Source of the DNA: Acetobacteraceae bacterium
GTDB lineage: Bacteria; Pseudomonadota; Alphaproteobacteria; Acetobacterales; Acetobacteraceae
Assembly (NCBI GenBank): GCA_947475245.1
Contig: CANJLW010000003.1
Coordinates: forward strand, 248,001 to 312,000
Length of the DNA stretch: 64,000 bases
Direction: 5' to 3'
Each line of letters opens with the position of its first letter. Positions within the stretch are counted from its first letter, which is position 1. The notes under the pieces are model-generated. The model saw only the letters and a program-made list of their open reading frames with translations, was not told the DNA's origin and ran no database searches. Below are positions 52,024 through 61,944 of the stretch, in pieces. Made by a program: the position numbers and the translations under genes.

Positions 52024-53241
52024 TCAGGTGTTCACGCCTTCGATGACACCGCCAAACGGTGCCCAGGTCTTGCCGTCCCAACGCATCAACTGCATCGCCT
52101 TGATAGGCCGGAAGTTGGTGGGGCTGGTATTGACCGTAATCCCCGGAAGCAAGGCCGGATTTTCAACATTCTTCAGGTTCGCCGCCTGTTTCATGATGTT
52201 CTCGCGGGTGAAGTTACCCTCACACTGCTTCAGGACCTGGAGCATCGTTTTGCTGACGGCATAGGCGAACACATAGCTCAGGTCCGTCTTGTCGGCACCG
52301 GGCATACGCTTGTCCATGAATTCCCGCCACTCGGCCATGCCGGCGTCCTGCGCCCAGCGCGGATCGGTTGGGTCCTTGATGTAGTTGGAACTGACCATGC
52401 CAATGGCGTTTTCGGGACCGGCGGGATTGATCACGGTGCCGACCGAGATCGACACGTTGGTCATCAGGAACAGCGGCTTCCAGCCGAGATCGGCGACCTT
52501 GCGAATCGACTGCGCCGCGAACTTCGGGATCGCCGCGACAAGCAGCACGTTCGCTCCGGACGCCTGCAGGCTGGTGATTTGGCTGTCGATCGTCGCGTCG
52601 GTGGTCTCGTAAGTGGAGACCACGGTCATCTTGTCGAAGCGATCGCCAAGAACGTCCTTGACGCCGGCCGGATAGTCTTTGCCAAAATCGTCGTTCTGAT
52701 AAAGGATCGCGATCTTCGCGTCGGGCTTCTGCTCCAGGATGTATTTCGTATAAATCTGCGCTTCCGTCCGGTAGCTCGGCTGGAAACCCATCGTCCACGG
52801 GAAGGCTTTGTGATCGCCCCACTTGTCGGCCCCGGTGGACACGAACAGATGCGGCACCTTCTTTTGGTTCACATAGCGATGGATCGCGGAATTGGTCGGC
52901 GTGCCCAATGTGTTGAACAGCAGCGCGACCTCATCCACCTCCACCAGGCGGCGCACCTGCTCGACCGTCTTCGGTGGGCTGTAACCGTCGTCGAGCGAGA
53001 TGAAATTGATCTTGCGGCCGCCGACACCGCCCTGCTCGTTCACCATGTTGAAGAACGCGGATTCCAGCTTGCCGATCACGCCATAGGACGATGCCGGGCC
53101 GCTATAGGCGATGGTATGGCCGATCTTCAATTCCGTCGCGGTCACCCCCGGAGAGGTCTGCGCGGATGCGGAGCGAGGCCCGCCAATGGCAAAGGACGCC
53201 GCCAGGGCACTGCCGCCAGCCAGAATATGCCGCCTGTTCAT
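52024..53241 (-). CDS. ABC transporter substrate-binding protein, LivJ-like (type 1 PBP)
   Basis: The 405-residue exported protein starts with a Tat-like signal (MNRRHILAGGSALAASFAIGG, cleavage near SASA-Q). The mature part ELKIGHTIAYSGPASSYG, NEQGGVGGRKINFISLDDGYSP and YQNDDFGKDYPAGVKD is the branched-chain amino acid/amide binding fold. No LivHMGF genes are adjacent: it is followed by a glycosyltransferase and otnK. It is the third orphan binding protein in the window. The ligand may be an amide or a hydroxy acid. Confidence 0.93.
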   Translation of the reverse strand: MNRRHILAGGSALAASFAIGGPRSASAQTSPGVTATELKIGHTIAYSGPASSYGVIGKLESAFFNMVNEQGGVGGRKINFISLDDGYSPPKTVEQVRRLVEVDEVALLFNTLGTPTNSAIHRYVNQKKVPHLFVSTGADKWGDHKAFPWTMGFQPSYRTEAQIYTKYILEQKPDAKIAILYQNDDFGKDYPAGVKDVLGDRFDKMTVVSTYETTDATIDSQITSLQASGANVLLVAAIPKFAAQSIRKVADLGWKPLFLMTNVSISVGTVINPAGPENAIGMVSSNYIKDPTDPRWAQDAGMAEWREFMDKRMPGADKTDLSYVFAYAVSKTMLQVLKQCEGNFTRENIMKQAANLKNVENPALLPGITVNTSPTNFRPIKAMQLMRWDGKTWAPFGGVIEGVNT

Positions 53242-53299
53242 GGTCGTACTCCCAATTTTTATGTCCGGTCAGTCTAAGCGCGCTCGGTACCGAAATACA

Positions 53300-54055
53300 T
53301 CATGCACCCGCCGGACAGCTAACCCGCGCCGCGTAGCCAATCCAACCCCAGTCGGCAAACATCGAGCCAATACGCTCGACCGCATCGCGCAAGGCTCGCC
53401 GTGGCGCCGACTTGACCGATCGGGTCTGGACCGGGGCGCCGGTAACGGTGTCGATCGCCTGCCTGATCCGTGCGCGGGCGCGGTGCAGCAGCACGCGTTG
53501 GTTTTCCGACGACAATTCCAGCAGGGCGCAGGTTTCCTCGGCGTCCTTACCCTCGATGTCGCGCAGAATCACCACCGCTTTCTGCCCCGCCGGCAACCGT
53601 TCGATCGCGTCCTGGACATGGGACCAGAGTTGACGACCGCCGACGATACGCTCCGGATCCAACTCGTCCCAAAGGCGCGGAGCCTCGATCCAGTGGCCGT
53701 CCGGTTGAAAGGCACTGCCCGGCACCGACCGTTCGCCGGGCGCGGCCCCATCCAACAGCGCCGGTAATCCGACCAGCCGGCCTTCGCGACTCGCGCGCGT
53801 GCGGGATCGATTGAGCACAATCGAATAAATCCAGGTCGACAGGCTCGATCGTCCCTCGAACCGCGCTATGCCCGAGTACACCGCCAGCCACGCGTCCTGC
53901 ACCACTTCCTCCCCCTGCGCTCGGCTGCCGATTATGGAGGCAGCGACGCCGACCATCGGGGCGTGGTGGCGACGAATCAAAGCGCGATAGGCCGACGCGT
54001 CTCCTTGACGCAGGCGCGCCAGAAAGCTGGGATCGTCAAATTCGGTCTGGCTCAT
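53300..54055 (-). CDS. ECF-subfamily RNA polymerase sigma factor
   Basis: The 251-residue sigma factor has region 2 (AQGEEVVQDAWLAVYSGIARFEG, with SSLSTWIYSIVLNRSR at 70-85) and region 4 (LPAGQKAVVILRDIEGKDAEETCALLE, 154-180), joined by a long linker of about 60 residues. A C-terminal extension of about 50 residues (from 201) with many Arg and Trp, ending VSCPAGA, is not part of sigma 4. The start MSQTEFDDPSF is 74 bases from the divergent zinc-finger gene. The target promoters are unknown. Confidence 0.9.
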   Translation of the reverse strand: MSQTEFDDPSFLARLRQGDASAYRALIRRHHAPMVGVAASIIGSRAQGEEVVQDAWLAVYSGIARFEGRSSLSTWIYSIVLNRSRTRASREGRLVGLPALLDGAAPGERSVPGSAFQPDGHWIEAPRLWDELDPERIVGGRQLWSHVQDAIERLPAGQKAVVILRDIEGKDAEETCALLELSSENQRVLLHRARARIRQAIDTVTGAPVQTRSVKSAPRRALRDAVERIGSMFADWGWIGYAARVSCPAGA

Positions 54056-54129
54056 GCGTCAGGCGGCCTCTGTTGCCCTGATCTCGTTGGAGTGTAACGG
54101 ATTAGCACCCGCCGTGTCATACCTGATCG

Positions 54130-54405
54130 ATGACGCTATGGAAGTGGAGTAAGCCAATTCCCACATGCCGGGATATGTCGGAACTCGTGACCGACTATAT
54201 GGAGAACGCGCTGCCGCGAATTCCGCGGCTGCGGGCGGGGCTACATCTCGTCTTGTGCTCCTCCTGCCGAGCGTATTTTGACCAGTTCGGCAAGACCGTC
54301 CGTCTGCTGAATGCCATGCCGGCGATGGCCAAGGACAGTTCGGCGGAGGACCGCGTTTTGGATGCCATCGCCTCCCGCCCCCCCGAGCCGGACGGGAAGC
54401 CCTAA
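54130..54405 (+). CDS. zf-HC2-like putative anti-sigma factor
   Basis: The 91-residue soluble protein has Cys13, His39, Cys43 and Cys46 in CRDMSELVTDYMENALPR and HLVLCSSCRAYF, the C-H-x3-C-x2-C zinc-binding anti-sigma (ZAS) pattern. There is no membrane segment after the motif, so it would be a cytoplasmic redox- or metal-sensing anti-sigma. It is divergent from, not downstream of, the ECF gene, which is atypical. The start is uncertain, as no clear ribosome site precedes it. Confidence 0.75.
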   Translation: MTLWKWSKPIPTCRDMSELVTDYMENALPRIPRLRAGLHLVLCSSCRAYFDQFGKTVRLLNAMPAMAKDSSAEDRVLDAIASRPPEPDGKP

Positions 54406-54987
54406 AAAAAATCTCGTGCCCTCTTAACCGGATGTTAACCATACGGTCGTAGGCTTCGATCGTTGGCTTCGGATTGTCCGGGGCCCGCTTGGATCGGAGT
54501 ACCGCGCATGCGGATTGCCGCCAAAGGCCTGGTCGCCGCAAGCACGGCGCGGACCGTCCGGCGATCCAAAAGGCGGTTGTTGAATTTCCTTGTAAAGACC
54601 AAGCCGTTCTTCCAGTATCCTGAATACGATTCGGCTCTTTATTTCCCGGCGGCGAAACCCTGGGTGACAGGAGGCGAAATATTGGGTGGAAGCGGATCTT
54701 TGTCGCCCTGGGTGTCGTGCGCAACCTGGGAATACAAGTCATCGTGCCGCCGATCCAGGCGCGAACCAAGTCCATTGTGTCGTATTACATCGGTAATGCG
54801 GTGCCTTCACACTCATGTCAAAGGACAATGGCCGCATGGACGACGCCGCTCTCCTGCATAAAATGCCGCTTCCCGCGCCTTTCGCGCTTCAACGCCGGCT
54901 GTCTCGATTTCACTTGCACGCATCTTGCATCGCTTCCGTCGGCTTCACGCGGGGGCCAAGTCTGACGCAAAGCAAAGGAGCGATCGT
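54406..54987. other. 580-base region without a clear gene
   Basis: This region separates the anti-sigma candidate from prkA. It starts with a run of eight A residues and a complete CtrA-type box (54424-54442), and contains AGGAGG at 54669-54674 without an ATG at the correct distance. An open frame with plausible residues (KRIFVALGVVRNLGIQVIVP) runs about 54624-54965 but lacks an ATG start. Nothing else is recognised. A decayed gene or a regulatory RNA is possible. Confidence 0.5.
54424..54442 (+). promoter_or_regulatory. Complete CtrA-type box
   Basis: TTAACCGGATGTTAACCAT matches the alphaproteobacterial CtrA consensus TTAA-N7-TTAAC exactly, with the additional octamer TTAACCAT in the second half. 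It lies 546 bases upstream of the prkA start and 19 bases downstream of the anti-sigma candidate. The box may drive an unknown transcript in the gap or act on prkA through a long leader. Confidence 0.6.
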
Positions 54988-56934
54988 ATGAACGCGATTG
55001 ATGACCTGTTTTCCGCCTATGCGCGCGGCTTCGAAGCCCAGCGCGACGCGGAGATGACCTTGCCGGAATATCTGGAGGGGTGCCGCGATAACCCGATGAT
55101 GTACGCCACGGCAACCGAGCGCCTGTTGGCGGCGATCGGAGAGCCGGTGATGGTCGATACGTCCAAGGATGCGCGCATGGGGCGCATCTTCATGAACCGG
55201 ACAATCCGCCTGTATCCGGCATTCGACGAATTCTACGGCATGGAAGAAACCGTCGAACGGATCGTCGGATTCCTGCGTCATGCCGCGCAAGGTCTCGAAG
55301 AACGCAAGCAAATCATGTATTTGCTCGGCCCCGTCGGTGGCGGCAAATCGTCGCTCGCGGAACGCCTGAAAGCGTTGATGGAGGTCTATCCCATCTACGT
55401 CCTGAAGGCGGACGACGAACTGAGCCCGGTTTTCGAAAGCCCGCTGGGGTTGTTCAACCCGGACCGGATGGGCGCGATGCTGGAAGATCGCTACGGCATT
55501 CCGCGGCGCCGGTTGAATGGGCTCATGAGCCCCTGGTGCCTCAAGCGCCTCGACGCTTTCAACGGCGACATCTCTCGCTTTCGCGTGCAGAAAATTGTGC
55601 CGTCGCGGCTGCGCCAACTCGCGATCGCAAAGACCGAACCCGGCGACGAAAACAACCAGGATATCTCTTCGCTCGTGGGTAAGGTCGACATCCGGAAGTT
55701 GGAACTGCATTCGCAGAACGACCCAGACGCATACAGCTATTCCGGCGGTCTGAACCGCGCCAACCAGGGCATGCTCGAGTTCGTCGAGATGTTCAAGGCA
55801 CCGATCAAGATGCTGCATCCCCTGCTGACGGCAACGCAGGAGGGAAATTACATCGGCACCGAGAATATCGGCGCGATCCCGTTCACCGGGATCATCATGG
55901 CGCATTCCAATGAATCGGAATGGCAAACCTTCAAGAATAACAAGAACAACGAAGCGTTCATCGATCGCATTTACGTGATCAAGGTACCCTATTGCCTACG
56001 GGTAACCGAAGAACAGAAAATCTACGACAAGCTTGTTTCCGGCTCTGAACTCGGCACCGCGCACTGCGCGCCGGCCACGCTGGAAATGTTGGCGCGCTTT
56101 ACGGTGTTGACGCGCCTGAAGAAGCACGAAAACTCGACGATCTATGCCAAAATGCGCGTCTATGACGGGGAAAGCCTGAAAGAAACCGATCCTCGCGCGC
56201 GCAGTCTGCAAGAGTACAAGGATGCCGCCGGAGTCGAGGAAGGCATGGATGGCGCGTCGACGCGGTTCGCGTTCAAAGTTCTGGCGGCGACCTTCAACCA
56301 CGATACGACGGAAATCGCCGCCGATCCCGTGCACCTGATGTACGTGCTCGAACAGTCGATCCGGCGGGAGCAGCTGCCCCAGGAAACCGAAAAGCGCTAT
56401 CTCGAGTTCATTAAGGGCGAACTCGCGCCACGCTATGCCGAATTCATCGGCAATGAGATCCAGAAGGCCTACCTGGAATCCTACCACGATTACGGTCAGA
56501 ACCTGTTCGACCGCTATGTCGCCTATGCCGATGCCTGGATCGAGGATATCGACTTCAAGGACCCGGACACGGGCCAGATGCTCAACCGCGATTTACTGAA
56601 CCAGGAACTCACCAAGGTCGAGAAACCCGCGGGGATCGCCAACCCCAAGGATTTCCGCAACGAGGTCGTGAAGTTCAGCCTGCGGGCACGCGCCAACAAC
56701 AACGGCAAAAACCCGTCCTGGACCAGCTACGAAAAAGTCCGCGAAGTGATCGAGCGGCGCATGTTCAGCCAGGTCGAGGAACTGCTGCCGGTAATCAGCT
56801 TCGGCTCCAAAAAAGACGGAGAGACCGAGAAGAAGCACAGCGAATTCGTGCAGCGCATGGTCGCCCGCAACTATACGGAACGTCAGGTGCGTCGCCTCGT
56901 CGAGTGGTACATGCGCGTGAAACAGGCGGGTTGA
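54988..56934 (+). CDS. prkA: PrkA-family serine protein kinase (YeaG-like)
   Basis: The 648-residue AAA-type kinase begins MNAIDDLFSAYARGFEAQRD. Walker A GPVGGGKSS is at 114-122, and the C-terminal half holds the kinase-like PrkA_C domain. YeaG of Escherichia coli is the best known relative, involved in nitrogen-starvation and stationary-phase adaptation. AAAGGAG lies before the ATG. yeaH follows after 7 bases and spoVR 36 bases later, giving the conserved three-gene operon. Confidence 0.97.
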   Translation: MNAIDDLFSAYARGFEAQRDAEMTLPEYLEGCRDNPMMYATATERLLAAIGEPVMVDTSKDARMGRIFMNRTIRLYPAFDEFYGMEETVERIVGFLRHAAQGLEERKQIMYLLGPVGGGKSSLAERLKALMEVYPIYVLKADDELSPVFESPLGLFNPDRMGAMLEDRYGIPRRRLNGLMSPWCLKRLDAFNGDISRFRVQKIVPSRLRQLAIAKTEPGDENNQDISSLVGKVDIRKLELHSQNDPDAYSYSGGLNRANQGMLEFVEMFKAPIKMLHPLLTATQEGNYIGTENIGAIPFTGIIMAHSNESEWQTFKNNKNNEAFIDRIYVIKVPYCLRVTEEQKIYDKLVSGSELGTAHCAPATLEMLARFTVLTRLKKHENSTIYAKMRVYDGESLKETDPRARSLQEYKDAAGVEEGMDGASTRFAFKVLAATFNHDTTEIAADPVHLMYVLEQSIRREQLPQETEKRYLEFIKGELAPRYAEFIGNEIQKAYLESYHDYGQNLFDRYVAYADAWIEDIDFKDPDTGQMLNRDLLNQELTKVEKPAGIANPKDFRNEVVKFSLRARANNNGKNPSWTSYEKVREVIERRMFSQVEELLPVISFGSKKDGETEKKHSEFVQRMVARNYTERQVRRLVEWYMRVKQAG

Positions 56935-56941
56935 TCCCAAG

Positions 56942-58243
56942 ATGCACATCGTCGATCGCCGTTTGAACCCAAGCGGGAAGAGCCTCGCGAACCGCCAGCG
57001 GTTCATGCGGCGCGCGAAATCGATGATCCGCAAGGCCGTGCACGAGAATGCCGGCGCGCGCAGCATCAAGGATGCCGACGAGGGAGGGGAAGTCCTGTTG
57101 CCCGCCCAGGGTGTGCAGGAGCCGTCCTTCCAGCGCGGCGCGTCAGGCGGCATCCGCGACCACCTGCTGCCGGGAAACAAGGAATACGTTACCGGCGACA
57201 CGATCCCCCGACCGCAACAGGGCGGCGGTGGCGGCGGGTCGGAGGGCAGCCCGGACGGCGAGGGCGAGGATGTTTTTCGCTTCGCCCTTTCGCGCGACGA
57301 GTTTGTCGATCTGTTCCTGGAGGATTTGGAACTACCCGACCTGTTGAAGCGTCGCGTCGCGCAAACCGAGGTCGTGAGCTACAGCCGAGCGGGGTATTCG
57401 GTGTCGGGGTCGCCGGCAAATCTTGCGTTGACGCGTACGGTTCGCAACAGCCTGTCGCGCCGTATCGCGCTGCGCCGCCCGAAAGCCGAGGAACTGGCTG
57501 CCCTACGCGCGGAACTCGCCGATCTCGATCCCGCCGACGACACGCGGCGTGTCGAGTTGGAGGCCGAGTTGTTGCGCAAGGAACGGCGCACGGGATTGAT
57601 CCCCTATATCGATCCCCTCGACGTTCGGTACAAGCGCTTCGACCCGATGCCGAAGCCCGCCGCGCAGGCCGTGATGTTTTGTCTGATGGATGTGTCGGGA
57701 TCCATGACCGAACACATGAAGGATCTGGCGAAGCGGTTTTATATCCTGCTCTATCTGTTCCTGAAGCGGCGCTATAAAAATGTGGAGGTCGTGTTCATCC
57801 GCCATACCCATACGGCGGCGGAAGTCGACGAAGACGCGTTTTTCAACAGTCCCGAAACCGGCGGCACGGTGGTTTCGACGGCGTTGGAGGAAATGCGCCG
57901 GATCATCGCCGATCGCTTCGATCCCGACGGTTGGAACATCTATGCCGCGCAGGCATCGGACGGCGACAATACCGCCAGCGATAACGAGCGCACCGCCGAA
58001 CTGCTGACCCAACATATTCTGCCCGCCAGCCAGTACTACGCCTATCTGGAAGTCGGGCGCGATATGGACCACTTCCCCACCGGCTTCATCCGACGCGACA
58101 GCGACCTGTGGCAAACCTACGCCGCGCTTGTCGCAAAAGGAGCACCCTTGGCCATGCGCAAGGTTGGACATCGGCGCGACATCTATCCGGTGTTTCGGGA
58201 ACTGTTCGCGCGCAAAACAGGTGCTGAAGCGGCCATTGCCTGA
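56942..58243 (+). CDS. yeaH: YeaH/YhbH family DUF444 protein
   Basis: The 433-residue protein has an acidic, Gly-rich linker (GGGGGSEGSPDGEGEDVF, about 95-112) and a vWA-like domain with MFCLMDVSGSMTEHMKD (MIDAS-like DVSGSM) and YLEVGRDMDHFP. DUF444 members always accompany PrkA. The protein is probably part of a PrkA-SpoVR complex or its target. The biochemical activity is unknown. Confidence 0.96.
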   Translation: MHIVDRRLNPSGKSLANRQRFMRRAKSMIRKAVHENAGARSIKDADEGGEVLLPAQGVQEPSFQRGASGGIRDHLLPGNKEYVTGDTIPRPQQGGGGGGSEGSPDGEGEDVFRFALSRDEFVDLFLEDLELPDLLKRRVAQTEVVSYSRAGYSVSGSPANLALTRTVRNSLSRRIALRRPKAEELAALRAELADLDPADDTRRVELEAELLRKERRTGLIPYIDPLDVRYKRFDPMPKPAAQAVMFCLMDVSGSMTEHMKDLAKRFYILLYLFLKRRYKNVEVVFIRHTHTAAEVDEDAFFNSPETGGTVVSTALEEMRRIIADRFDPDGWNIYAAQASDGDNTASDNERTAELLTQHILPASQYYAYLEVGRDMDHFPTGFIRRDSDLWQTYAALVAKGAPLAMRKVGHRRDIYPVFRELFARKTGAEAAIA

Positions 58244-58279
58244 CGAGCACTCTCCCTCCATCAACGGGGAAACAAAGAC

Positions 58280-59824
58280 ATGAGCGCAACACTTCGCGCC
58301 GAACGTCCACTGTTTGAAAAAGCCGACTGGCAATTTTCGACGATTCAGCGCTGCCACGACGAAATCGAAAAAATCGCCGTGGAGGAAATGGGGCTTTCCG
58401 TCTATCCGAACCAGATCGAGGTGATCGGCACGGAACAGATGCTGGATGCCTATTCGTCCATCGGCATGCCGCTGTTCTACAAGCACTGGTCGTTCGGCAA
58501 GCAATTCGCGCGCAACGAAGCCCTGTACCGCGCCGGGATGCAGGGGCTGGCGTACGAAATCGTTATCAACTCCAACCCCTGCATCAGCTATATCATGGAG
58601 GAAAACACCGCGACGATGCAGGCGCTGGTGATCGCGCACGCGGCTTTCGGCCACAACCATTTTTTCAAGAACAACTACCTGTTCAAGCAATGGACGGACG
58701 CCGACGGCATCCTTGACTACCTGGAATTCGCCCGCGACTACATCATCTCGTGCGAAGAGCGCTACGGCGAAGCCGCGGTCGAACAATTGCTGGACTCCGC
58801 GCACGCCCTGATGAACCAAGGCGTGCATAAATATCCCCGCGCGCGCGCCACCGATCTGCGGACGGAAGAAAAGCGGGAACGCGGGCGTCGGGAACACGAC
58901 GAACGCGTCTTTAACGACCTCTGGCGCACCGTGCCCGGCAAGGACCCTGCTCGGCATGACCCAACGGCGGAGGAACGTCGGCGGGCATTGTTGCAGTTAC
59001 CGCAGGAAAACATCCTGTATTTCCTAGAGAAAACCGCCCCCAGGCTGCAACCCTGGCAGCGCGAAATCCTGCGCATCGTTCGGATTATCGCGCAGTATTT
59101 CTATCCTCAATCACAGACCAAGGTGATGAACGAGGGTTGCGCGACCTTTGTGCACTACAAGATCATGCACCGCCTGCACGAAAAAGGGCTGCTGACCGAC
59201 GGGGCGATGGTCGAATTCCTGCACTCCCACACCAACGTCGTCTTTCAGCCCGATTTCGACGATCGTCGCTATTCCGGCCTGAACCCGTACGCCCTGGGCT
59301 TCGCCATGATGCAGGATATCGAACGGATCTGCGAGAACCCGACCGACGAAGACCGGACCTGGTTTCCCGATATCGCCGGTCACGGCGATCCGATGGCCGT
59401 GCTGCGCGATGTCTGGGCGAATTATCGCGACGAGAGCTTCATCCTTCAGTTTCTCAGCCCGCGCCTGATCCGACAGTTCGCCTTGTTTCACGTCGTCGAC
59501 GATGCCGCCGACCCGACGATGCGGGTCAATTCCATCCATGACGAGCGCGGGTATCGCAAAATCAGACAGGCCTTGGCTCGTCATTACGATATCAGCTGGA
59601 CCTCGCCGGATATTCAGGTCGTCGATGTCGATCTGGCGGGCGACCGCCGTCTGATCGTGCATCACCGCGCCTTGAACCAGGTTCTGTTGGAAGAAAAGGG
59701 TGCCAGGATGGTCCTGCAACACTTGGCCGATCTGTGGGGCTATGACGTGCAGATGAAGGAAATCGATCCGACATCGGATGCCGTGCTGAAAGAGTACAAC
59801 GCCAAACCTCGTTCGACGCCGTAA
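58280..59824 (+). CDS. spoVR: SpoVR family protein (YcgB-like)
   Basis: The 514-residue protein has the SpoVR fold: EEMGLSVYPNQIEVIGTEQM, YKHWSFGKQFARNEALYR and NSNPCISYIMEENT, then AHAAFGHNHFFKNN. SpoVR supports spore cortex formation in Bacillus, and in proteobacteria it accompanies PrkA and YeaH in stress or starvation response. The protein is intact. The GGGGAAAC sequence lies upstream of the ATG. Confidence 0.97.
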   Translation: MSATLRAERPLFEKADWQFSTIQRCHDEIEKIAVEEMGLSVYPNQIEVIGTEQMLDAYSSIGMPLFYKHWSFGKQFARNEALYRAGMQGLAYEIVINSNPCISYIMEENTATMQALVIAHAAFGHNHFFKNNYLFKQWTDADGILDYLEFARDYIISCEERYGEAAVEQLLDSAHALMNQGVHKYPRARATDLRTEEKRERGRREHDERVFNDLWRTVPGKDPARHDPTAEERRRALLQLPQENILYFLEKTAPRLQPWQREILRIVRIIAQYFYPQSQTKVMNEGCATFVHYKIMHRLHEKGLLTDGAMVEFLHSHTNVVFQPDFDDRRYSGLNPYALGFAMMQDIERICENPTDEDRTWFPDIAGHGDPMAVLRDVWANYRDESFILQFLSPRLIRQFALFHVVDDAADPTMRVNSIHDERGYRKIRQALARHYDISWTSPDIQVVDVDLAGDRRLIVHHRALNQVLLEEKGARMVLQHLADLWGYDVQMKEIDPTSDAVLKEYNAKPRSTP

Positions 59825-59825
59825 G

Positions 59826-59856
59826 AAAAATCCTCTCCCGCGGAAGCGGGAGAGGA
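59826..59856 (-). terminator. Terminator hairpin between spoVR and the flavin reductase
   Basis: TCCTCTCCCGC (59831-59841) and GCGGGAGAGGA (59846-59856) form a perfect 11-base stem with a GGAA loop. Five A bases to the left give a T-run on the minus strand, so it fits the flavin reductase transcript; the symmetric stem may also stop the spoVR transcript from the left. Confidence 0.85.
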
Positions 59857-59863
59857 CATCCGA

Positions 59864-60511
59864 TTACTTCTTCATGTTGGCCTTGTGCGCGGGCCAATCT
59901 TCCAGCGCGATGCGCGGCAGTTCGAAGCGGTCGGTCACGCGAGAATACCAGCCACCGCCATGCATGCGTCCGATCAGGTCGAGCTTCGGCGTGTCGATGT
60001 AGCAGCGCTCCTGATCCAGCACGCAGTCGTCGCGCACATAGACCGACAGAACCTTGCCCAGCACGACCGCGCGGTCGATGCCGACATCGACAATGACCAG
60101 ACGCTCACACTCGAACGCGACCGGAGCCTCGGCGATACGCGGCACCTTGACCTTGACCGAAGGCGCGGTCGTCAGCCCGGCTTCCTTCAGTTCGTCGACT
60201 CCCTTGGGGAAATCGATGGCGGTGACGTTCATCGGTTCGGCCAGGTCGTAGCTGACCAGATTGATCACGAATTCCCCGGTGCGACGAATATTGCCGCCGG
60301 TGTCCTTGACGTCGCCCGGGCCGCGCCCGCCGATGCCGAAGGCCAGAATGGGCGGATTGCCCGACATCGCATTGAAGAATGAATACGGTGCCGCATTCAC
60401 GGTGCCGTCCAGATCCTGTGTCGTTACCCAGGCAACGGGGCGCGGACCAATCGTCGCGACCAGCAGCTTGTAGATATTCTGGTTGGAGGTATCGGCGAAA
60501 TCGAACAGCAT
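59864..60511 (-). CDS. Flavin reductase-like FMN-binding protein
   Basis: The 215-residue protein belongs to the split-barrel flavin reductase domain family: YKLLVATIGPRPVAWVTTQD, APYSFFNAMSGNPPILAFGI and TGEFVINLVSYDL. Proteins of this type reduce FMN or serve as flavoredoxins to partner oxygenases. The divergent membrane protein gene is 23 bases away. Its physiological partner is unknown. Confidence 0.9.
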   Translation of the reverse strand: MLFDFADTSNQNIYKLLVATIGPRPVAWVTTQDLDGTVNAAPYSFFNAMSGNPPILAFGIGGRGPGDVKDTGGNIRRTGEFVINLVSYDLAEPMNVTAIDFPKGVDELKEAGLTTAPSVKVKVPRIAEAPVAFECERLVIVDVGIDRAVVLGKVLSVYVRDDCVLDQERCYIDTPKLDLIGRMHGGGWYSRVTDRFELPRIALEDWPAHKANMKK

Positions 60512-60534
60512 GTCGGTCCCCTGAGGAAGTTGTC

Positions 60535-61944
60535 GTGAGCGTTACCCGTCGCACCGAACCCTGTCCAGACGCCGTTTCCGTCTGGTTGTACGGCTTTGTC
60601 TGGTTCGCCACCCTGGCGGACCAATGTTTGACCTGGCCGCCGTTGGGACACGCGGCGGGCATTGCGATCCTGGGGTTCCTGTTGCTCCAGTTCCCGCGCC
60701 AGCGATCCTACGTCCGAGCCTTGTTCGTCGGCCTGTCCGGCATCGGTCTGGCGGGCGTCGTCTTCTCCGCCGATCCGCTCGGCTTGTTTCTGGAAGGCTG
60801 GCGGCGAGGCGCGGTCTATGCCGCTTTTTTCCTCGCTTTATCGTCGTTGCGCGACGCGGCGGAGACCAGCCGTCTGGTGCGGCGCTGCGGGCAGCACCTT
60901 GTGGCGCAACCGCCGGGACGGCGCTATGCCGCGCTTACCGGCGGCGGACATCTGTTCGGTATCATATTGTCCTATGGCGCGATCGAACTGCTGGGCGCGA
61001 TGGTCATGCGCGCCGGCGGGCGGAGCGCGACCGAGAATGGTCGGCGCATGATGATGGCGATCTATCGCGGCTTCTGCGTGATGAACTGCTGGAGTCCGCT
61101 GAATCTGATGACGGCGGTGGTGACGACCGCGGTGCCCGCGGCACCCATGCAGCGCCTGTTGCCCATCGCGTTCGTCGTCTCGATCGTAATTGCGGCCATT
61201 GGTTGGTTGGAAGATAGGCTGGCGTGGCGGCAAACCGGCGTGACCACGCGCACGACGGAACGCTGGACCGTTCACCTCCGCATCGTCGCCCTGGTCGCGC
61301 TGGTCATGCTCGGCGCGGAGACGATCAGTTGGCTGTTCGGCGTCGGTTTGGTCGCCTCCGTGACACTGGCGGTGCCGTCGATTGCCCTGGCCTGGGCGGT
61401 GGCGCAGACCGGACCGCGGACTCCGGGCTGGGCAATCGCGGTGATCCGTCGCCGTGTCGCCCGGTTCATGCGACGCGTGCCGAGTTTCCGGGGAGAGGCG
61501 ACGGTGCTGTCCTGTTCCGGATTCATGGGGGTTGCGGCGGTCGGCGTGTTACCGGTCGACGGCATCGCGCCGTGGCTGACGCATATGCCGCCCGTGCTGG
61601 TCCCGCTGCTGGTTCCGGTGTTGCTGATCCTGACCGGCCAGATCGGTCTGAACCCGGTCGCGATCGTCGCCTTGCTGGGGGCCGCGATGCCCGATCCCGC
61701 GCGCCTCGGCGTCCCTCCCGCCGCCCTGGCGTTTGCCTGCATGGTCGGCTGGGGTCTTGGCGTAGGGATGACACCGATGTCCGCCTCCGCCATCACGACG
61801 GCGCGGTGGGCGGGCGCTTCGCCGTGGACGGTTGGATCGGCGTGGAACATCCGCTTTACCCTCGCGGCCCTGGTGTTTGCCTGGGCCGCGATCGGGGTGG
61901 TGTTTGTCTGCTTCGCCGGTGCTGCTCAAACAGCGGTGCCGTAG
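60535..61944 (+). CDS. Polytopic membrane protein, probable transporter
   Basis: From GTG at 60535 (GAGGAAG seven bases upstream) the 469-residue protein has about 11-12 hydrophobic segments. GGGHLFGIILSYGAIELLGAM and LILTGQIGLNPVAIVALLGAAMPDP are the best landmarks, and the latter resembles the glycine-proline hairpins of ion-transporter-superfamily carriers. I do not recognise the family. Its stop overlaps the convergent 5-oxoprolinase by 19 bases. Confidence 0.7.
   Translation: MSVTRRTEPCPDAVSVWLYGFVWFATLADQCLTWPPLGHAAGIAILGFLLLQFPRQRSYVRALFVGLSGIGLAGVVFSADPLGLFLEGWRRGAVYAAFFLALSSLRDAAETSRLVRRCGQHLVAQPPGRRYAALTGGGHLFGIILSYGAIELLGAMVMRAGGRSATENGRRMMMAIYRGFCVMNCWSPLNLMTAVVTTAVPAAPMQRLLPIAFVVSIVIAAIGWLEDRLAWRQTGVTTRTTERWTVHLRIVALVALVMLGAETISWLFGVGLVASVTLAVPSIALAWAVAQTGPRTPGWAIAVIRRRVARFMRRVPSFRGEATVLSCSGFMGVAAVGVLPVDGIAPWLTHMPPVLVPLLVPVLLILTGQIGLNPVAIVALLGAAMPDPARLGVPPAALAFACMVGWGLGVGMTPMSASAITTARWAGASPWTVGSAWNIRFTLAALVFAWAAIGVVFVCFAGAAQTAVP

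Follow-up and report, generated by a model that had tools for sequence, protein, structure and literature searches.

The window, a 64,000-nt stretch from an Acetobacteraceae bacterium (an uncultured relative of acetic acid bacteria), carries a gene for an extracytoplasmic function (ECF) sigma factor, a divergently oriented gene for a small zinc-finger anti-sigma protein (here ZAS), and the three genes prkA, yeaH, and spoVR. An earlier note had described these five genes, together with a CtrA-type box, as one regulatory block; family matches and pattern searches confirmed that all of them are present where it placed them. We think it probable, with appreciable room for doubt, that the block consists of two units lying side by side: a sigma/anti-sigma pair, in which translation of the anti-sigma would mostly start at AUU and be limited by initiation factor 3 (IF3), a proofreading factor of the ribosome, and a separate prkA operon. 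In 13 of the 16 genomes of the window's genus that carry the pair, ZAS seems to initiate at AUU (AUC once). Genome comparison demonstrates the features on which this reading builds, namely, the gene order, a coding signal that begins at AUU or AUC, conservation of the box, and the lack of a consistent ECF-type motif near prkA.

The start codon of the anti-sigma gene

Among the 59 genomes searched, the window's own included, prkA was found in 37 and a close relative of the sigma factor (at least 62% identity) in 17; a 46% match in genome G029 and four weaker matches were excluded from the latter count. In all 17 close-sigma genomes, sigma (minus strand), ZAS (plus strand), and prkA (plus strand) follow one another on one contig. 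Sixteen of these prkA-adjacent genomes belong to the window's genus and one (G034) belongs to another. ZAS matches were found in 65 of 299 family genomes and 27 of 102 genera; leaving out five that had already been counted and three weak ones (E > 1e-4; G165, G185, and G278) gave 57 further loci.

A mechanical list of open reading frames (ORFs) placed ZAS, with its zf-HC2 match, at 54130-54405 on the plus strand, beginning with an ATG. Alignment of the ZAS genes revealed several genomes without a canonical start ahead of the first putative zinc ligand, a cysteine. The codon three positions before this cysteine (position −3, the cysteine being 0) was ATT in 12 and ATC in 1 of the 17 prkA-adjacent genomes, which corresponds to 13 of the 16 pair-carrying genomes of the window's genus. 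Of the other four, G004 has GTG at that codon, G007 and G027 have ATG, and G034 has TTG one codon later. No ATG, GTG, or TTG occurs between the cysteine and the in-frame stop upstream in G011, G017, G001, and G003, and none lies within 40 codons upstream in G026. The nearest upstream canonical codon is 17 to 32 codons ahead of the cysteine in G009, G028, G016, and G002 and nearer in the window genome (G000; position −12), G032 and G014 (−7 in each), and G023 (−4 and −9).

Codon variation was compared on the two sides of position −3 in the 13 AUU/AUC genomes. Between positions −12 and −4, each position has 6 to 13 different codons and 5 to 10 different residues. Pro at position −2 and Cys at position 0 do not change, although their codons vary synonymously; position −1 is Thr in 12 of the 13, and later positions have 1 to 4 residues. 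The uniformity of position −3 itself is partly a product of selection, since the 13 rows were chosen by that codon. By this comparison, the ZAS coding signal begins at ATT/ATC.

A Shine-Dalgarno (SD) duplex of −3.8 to −10.3 kcal/mol precedes ATT/ATC in all 13 genomes. In the window the SD sequence is GGAG (54146-54149, plus strand; anti-SD duplex, −5.9 kcal/mol), 7 nt 5' of the putative AUU start codon at 54157-54159, and the protein read from this codon comprises 82 codons (54157-54405). An in-frame ATG three codons past the cysteine (Cys+3) has duplex values of −1.1 to +2.2 in the same genomes and is thus without an SD sequence. The ATG at 54130 is probably not the true ZAS start.

Elsewhere in the family, canonical codons occupy this site: GTG, ATG, or TTG was found at exactly the equivalent codon in 55 of the 57 further loci. 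The two exceptions were L199, with ATG two codons upstream, and L177 (genome G150, from another genus), where ATC stands at the ZAS start codon position and GTG lies two codons upstream. The sigma gene starts with ATG in 16 and GTG in 1 of the 17 prkA-adjacent genomes. As a control, we used infC, the textbook case of a gene with a noncanonical start, autoregulated by IF3. Of 18 genomes searched, 16 yielded infC, and all 16 have an SD sequence followed by ATA. At these loci (L322 to L337), the SD sequence CAGGAG, ATA, and GCC or GCA are followed by Arg codons that vary synonymously, and infC appears to start at AUA. At locus L074 (genome G032), the sigma reading frame is interrupted by a TAG after 48 codons, whereas the AUU-started anti-sigma frame is open, reflecting either decay or an assembly error.

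The description that suits ZAS best is that of a soluble, class I-type zinc anti-sigma with putative zinc binding and sigma contact. The window protein scored 22.6 bits against Pfam zf-HC2, narrowly above the cutoff of 22.2, and 41 bits against the NCBIfam anti-sigma model, below the cutoff of 50; zf-HC2 matches at E ≤ 0.01 were obtained for 38 of 42 ZAS members. An H-x3-C-x2-C motif and an N-terminal cysteine supply four putative ligands (C4, H30, C34, and C37 counted from the AUU) that are invariant in the 17 prkA-adjacent rows. They are also invariant in 42 rows, which were located by that pattern itself. Row set A3 omits L230 and L266 of the 43 found. A profile of the 42 ZAS sequences matched the solved structures of RsiW (7e-8) and ChrR (1.3e-3) and also the animal protein CP190 (9e-4). 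An AlphaFold2 model with four helices had a predicted local distance difference test (pLDDT) score of 92.6 and a predicted template modeling (pTM) score of 0.63, and its 15 best Foldseek matches in the Protein Data Bank (PDB) all came from sigma/anti-sigma complexes. The sigma factor gene (53300-54055, minus strand, ATG start) encodes sigma2 and sigma4 domains (Pfam Sigma70_r2, 6e-13; r4_2, 6.3e-11) without a sigma3 match and scored 70.4 bits against the NCBIfam sigma70-ECF model (cutoff, 42.9).

A likely promoter for the sigma factor, and the prkA leader

Comparison of the sigma-ZAS spacers predicted an ECF promoter directed at ZAS, TGTAAC-N17-GTCATA, at 54093-54121 on the plus strand of the window. 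Of the 17 prkA-adjacent spacers, 10 contain a strict form of the motif, [TC]GTAAC-N17/18-GTC, directed at ZAS, as do 34 of the 47 other divergent spacers, mostly 23 to 62 nt ahead of the ZAS start codon; toward sigma it was found in none of these 17 and 47 spacers. A looser fit was reached in 12 of the 17. Four genomes (G002, G004, G007, and G027) fit poorly, with 7 or 8 of 12 letters, and none of the 10 loci with co-directional sigma and ZAS contained the strict pattern. The exact motif TGTAAC-N17-GTCATA occurs once in the 5.2-Mb genome from which the window comes, ahead of ZAS; with one mismatch allowed, the genome gave 5 matches versus 7 for a reversed control.

A matrix built from 12 ZAS promoters (TGTAA[CT]-N17-G[TA]C) was scanned over the 400-nt regions preceding 32 prkA genes (17 from sigma-carrying loci and 15 from loci without sigma; G020 excluded), with 20 single-letter shuffles per region as the control. 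No consistent copy was found in these 400-nt regions, beyond which the loci with longer gaps extend. Scores above those of the shuffles were seen in three regions, that of G023 among the sigma carriers and those of G025 and G022 among the sigma-less genomes; all three matches lie on the minus strand, with no position in common. Because the motif points at ZAS and is absent as a consistent copy before prkA, it is likely that the sigma factor transcribes its own anti-sigma gene, and we find no support for its direct control of prkA. We rejected such control for lack of a consistent match to the ZAS promoter matrix within 400 nt upstream of the 32 prkA genes.

The second unit comprises prkA (54988-56934; a PrkA family serine kinase/AAA protein; NCBIfam PRK15455, 1,250 bits versus a cutoff of 576), yeaH (a DUF444 gene; 56942-58243; Pfam DUF444, 542 bits), and spoVR (58280-59824; NCBIfam PRK11767, 837 bits versus a cutoff of 679), in this order on the plus strand and with family scores far above the cutoffs. 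Its leader contains the CtrA-type box TTAACCGGATGTTAA (54424-54438, plus strand), which matches the CtrA consensus TTAA-N7-TTAA and was identified by pattern search. The box is the only such match in the 64 kb, and none arose in 100 shuffles. Among 33 prkA loci (17 with sigma and 16 without, the window included), 27 leaders hold a perfect box; the leaders, 23.2 kb in all, thus account for 27 boxes, and the remaining 329 kb contain 2. The leaders without a perfect box are those of G014, G034, G005, G020, G010, and G012; an imperfect box, one or two mismatches away, is discernible in G014, G010, and G012, and the missing box in G020 is uninformative because that contig, from a genome without a close sigma, has only 179 nt upstream of prkA. 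Where prkA lies beside the pair in five loci of other genera, one of the five has a perfect box. The earlier note had the box separating the regulatory layers. It is real, but it sits between ZAS and prkA and, since it is kept there with or without sigma, it belongs to the prkA leader. A CtrA gene is encoded in the window genome (363.9 bits versus a cutoff of 350) and scored above the cutoff in 7 of 10 genomes and just below it in the other 3. The box is conserved in position, and CtrA may bind there.

Other elements of the leader are more tentative. A candidate small ORF (54508-54861, plus strand) with an SD sequence begins at an ATG 84 nt past the start of the box, and in 21 of the 27 perfect-box leaders an SD-preceded ATG lies 81 to 89 nt past that point. 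The N terminus is loosely common (MHLTA-like) and the remainder varies in length and sequence; the ORF may represent a leader peptide or an RNA element. Closer to prkA, we noted by eye a second conserved element, TTGCACGCATCTTGCAT (54914-54930, plus strand). It reads TTGCAC-N5-TTGCAT in the window, many genomes include the same sequence whether or not they have sigma, and several have a poorer version. The sigma54 promoter consensus is TGGCAC-N5-TTGC, and the window element, in the manner of a −24/−12 promoter, is one letter off its GG; 10 of 10 genomes carry rpoN. In Rhizobium etli, prkA is strongly sigmaN dependent (PMC3188799). These likenesses are suggestive only, and prkA may have a sigma54-type promoter. 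By eye, a sequence at or near CTTGAA-N17/18-CTTATAT or CACTAT, which resembles the heat shock consensus, was visible in midleader at L073, L074, and several sigma-less loci (L090 to L102). No Rfam element was found in 53200-60000 at E ≤ 1. For a 521-codon ORF past the block (60379-61944), neither Pfam nor NCBIfam gave a match at E ≤ 0.001.

Weighing the alternatives

The earlier note raised the possibility that the pair, the box, and the prkA genes work together, and it named relatives without the pair beside prkA as evidence that would refute this. The gene order is conserved in 17 of 17 close-sigma genomes, but 16 other genomes of the same genus carry prkA with neither sigma nor ZAS adjoining it (G029 has its 46% sigma elsewhere), so that relatives of the refuting kind make up about half of the genus. 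In two of them (G030 and G019; loci L088 and L089), an upstream transporter gene adjoins prkA directly and the pair is missing; between pbp and prkA, no sigma/ZAS remnant was detected in either (best tblastn E value, 2.9). Among the 57 further loci, sigma is divergent in 47, a more distant sigma (42 to 53%) lies on the same strand in 10, and prkA is downstream of ZAS in 5, from four other genera. The 42 genomes with a divergent pair away from prkA include 8 with prkA elsewhere and 34 with no match at E ≤ 1e-50, some of these assemblies being incomplete; some of the 57 loci end early (the shortest 268 nt past the cysteine), and there the absence of prkA rests on the genome-wide search. A sigma tree was built from 63 of the 17 plus 57 loci, omitting the 10 co-directional loci and L188, whose sigma is cut by the contig end. 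In it, the 22 prkA-adjacent rows and one other formed a group of 23 (SH-aLRT, 93), and the adjacency label needed 2 changes. We conclude that sigma and ZAS form an independent module, which in one clade has come to adjoin prkA.

A single circuit, with the ECF sigma directly transcribing prkA-yeaH-spoVR and CtrA acting on top, is therefore hard to maintain, and we hold it to be unlikely. Its attractions are the adjacency in every close-sigma carrier and in the five further loci, with ZAS and prkA always on one strand, and the conserved box; what endures of the earlier proposal is a partly conserved gene order and the box, as a prkA leader element in 27 of 33 loci, with a CtrA gene present. Against it stand the many genomes that have one unit without the other, the failure to find the ZAS promoter motif consistently within 400 nt upstream of prkA, and the prkA-proximal element, which by eye is much alike in sigma-less genomes. 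Somewhat less doubtful, though still improbable in our view, is read-through of a sigma-driven ZAS transcript into prkA-yeaH-spoVR that would boost prkA. ZAS and prkA are co-directional in 22 of 22 adjacent loci, and terminator-like sites in 53200-55100 (both strands; 2 versus 1.4 expected) include a single weak plus-strand site between the two genes. The ZAS-prkA gaps of 342 to 956 nt in the 17 loci contain promoter-like elements of their own, however, and common descent explains the shared orientation.

Two other alternatives concern the start codon. ZAS might start canonically, at the ATG at 54130 or at the Cys+3 ATG, with ATT as a leader or internal codon. The first ATG is indeed present in the window, and the second is common to the 13 AUU/AUC genomes and missing from the four prkA-adjacent genomes with canonical starts. 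We reject this explanation as very improbable: in four genomes the frame contains no canonical codon between the upstream stop and ATT/ATC, initiation at Cys+3 would delete the invariant C4 and has no SD sequence, and other genera have Met at Cys+3 along with a canonical codon at position −3. Alternatively, AUU could be in use simply as an inefficient start that sets the anti-sigma level low, without regulatory input from IF3. Three members of the genus manage with GTG or ATG, and the authors of the Streptomyces study could not show release of the GTC start by oxidative stress (PMC5472188). We regard this simpler use of AUU as a possibility of the same modest order as read-through; the case for IF3 acting on the codon, set out below, bears on it by analogy with known genes.

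Several observations weigh against the two-unit reading with an AUU-started ZAS. In G032, G014, and G023, a canonical codon is at most 9 codons ahead of the ZAS cysteine. The ATG at 54130 is in frame, 27 nt upstream of the AUU, and because it lies about at the predicted transcription start, a leaderless ATG start is possible in the window genome. AUU is not indispensable, since GTG or ATG takes its place in three members of the genus. The AUU state requires 5 changes on the sigma tree, compared with a mean of 11.9 for shuffled labels, and the inner support of that tree is weak. The 11 of the 16 pair-carrying genus genomes that could be assigned to a record are all metagenome-assembled genomes. 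The strict promoter pattern is missing in 7 of 17 and 13 of 47 spacers, Foldseek returned no PDB match for the ZAS model at E ≤ 0.001 (best, RsiW at E = 0.11), and control by IF3 enters by analogy only.

A proposed mechanism and its relation to known systems

Within the reading we favor, the first unit would consist of the ECF sigma and its small divergent anti-sigma, with the sigma transcribing the anti-sigma gene from the promoter between the two. Translation of the anti-sigma would start mostly at AUU (AUC in one species). Because IF3 disfavors this codon, the brake would be made slowly and in dependence on IF3, while the sigma gene has a normal ATG or GTG start. The precedents of infC and Streptomyces sigR make it probable that IF3 limits synthesis of the anti-sigma. 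The yield of anti-sigma per transcript would then be low and would rise as initiation fidelity falls; the sigma-driven promoter perhaps compensates for the low yield, with IF3 as an extra input. The second unit, prkA-yeaH-spoVR, would have its own leader with the CtrA-type box and the sigma54-like element, and it exists without the sigma. More speculatively, and with odds that we would place below even, IF3 may hold the AUU brake down such that changes in the IF3:30S ratio (in cold, in starvation, or under ribosome-targeting antibiotics) reset the ratio of sigma to anti-sigma. The ribosome would in that case act as a sensor for this ECF system, its polarity being the reverse of that in Streptomyces SigR.

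The nearest parallel is sigR of Streptomyces, whose GTC start is repressed by IF3 and where altering GTC upsets the SigR/RsrA balance, according to Feeney et al. 2017 (PMC5472188), who also state that very few bacterial genes with starts other than ATG, GTG, or TTG have been characterized. As described there, sigR-rsrA resembles the present system in being a sigma/zinc anti-sigma pair with a conserved noncanonical start on one partner and a nearby upstream canonical codon that misleads annotation. It differs in that the odd codon, GTC, is on the sigma gene, whereas AUU/AUC is on the anti-sigma gene here, and in that the two Streptomyces genes are cotranscribed, whereas those of these Acetobacteraceae are divergent. 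Like ZAS, infC of the window's genus has an SD sequence followed by an AUN start (AUA); unlike ZAS, a putative transcriptional regulator, it encodes IF3 itself.

With the class I zinc anti-sigmas RsiW, ChrR, and RslA, ZAS shares the H-x3-C-x2-C motif, the N-terminal cysteine, and four helices, and its profile matches the first two. RsiW is membrane bound and ChrR has a C-terminal domain; ZAS differs in being 82 amino acids long and divergent from its sigma, with no C-terminal domain and, by eye, no membrane helix. The R. etli locus has the same three genes in the same order, and the sigmaN dependence of its prkA parallels the sigma54-like element here; the passages of PMC3188799 consulted mention neither an ECF pair nor a CtrA-type box there. 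Among the matches listed in literature searches, no CtrA-prkA link was found (the two prkA occurrences in PMC11999139 are plasmid names, with no CtrA link), and no paper dealt with this divergent sigma/ZAS pair. For an anti-sigma gene with a noncanonical start, only the sigR paper was relevant among the matches listed, which cover open-access literature and few subscription journals. The parts are of known kinds; their combination, a conserved AUU/AUC start on an anti-sigma gene, did not appear among the open-access matches listed.

To our knowledge, gene finders do not search for noncanonical starts. As a simple test elsewhere, start codons in the various anti-sigma families could be compared against the first zinc ligand, which is invariant. 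Since the CtrA-type leader of prkA is conserved without the sigma, cell cycle control of prkA can be tested by itself. If true, a conserved AUU on the anti-sigma gene would mirror the case of sigR and point to IF3-limited starts as a recurrent means of setting the sigma/anti-sigma balance.

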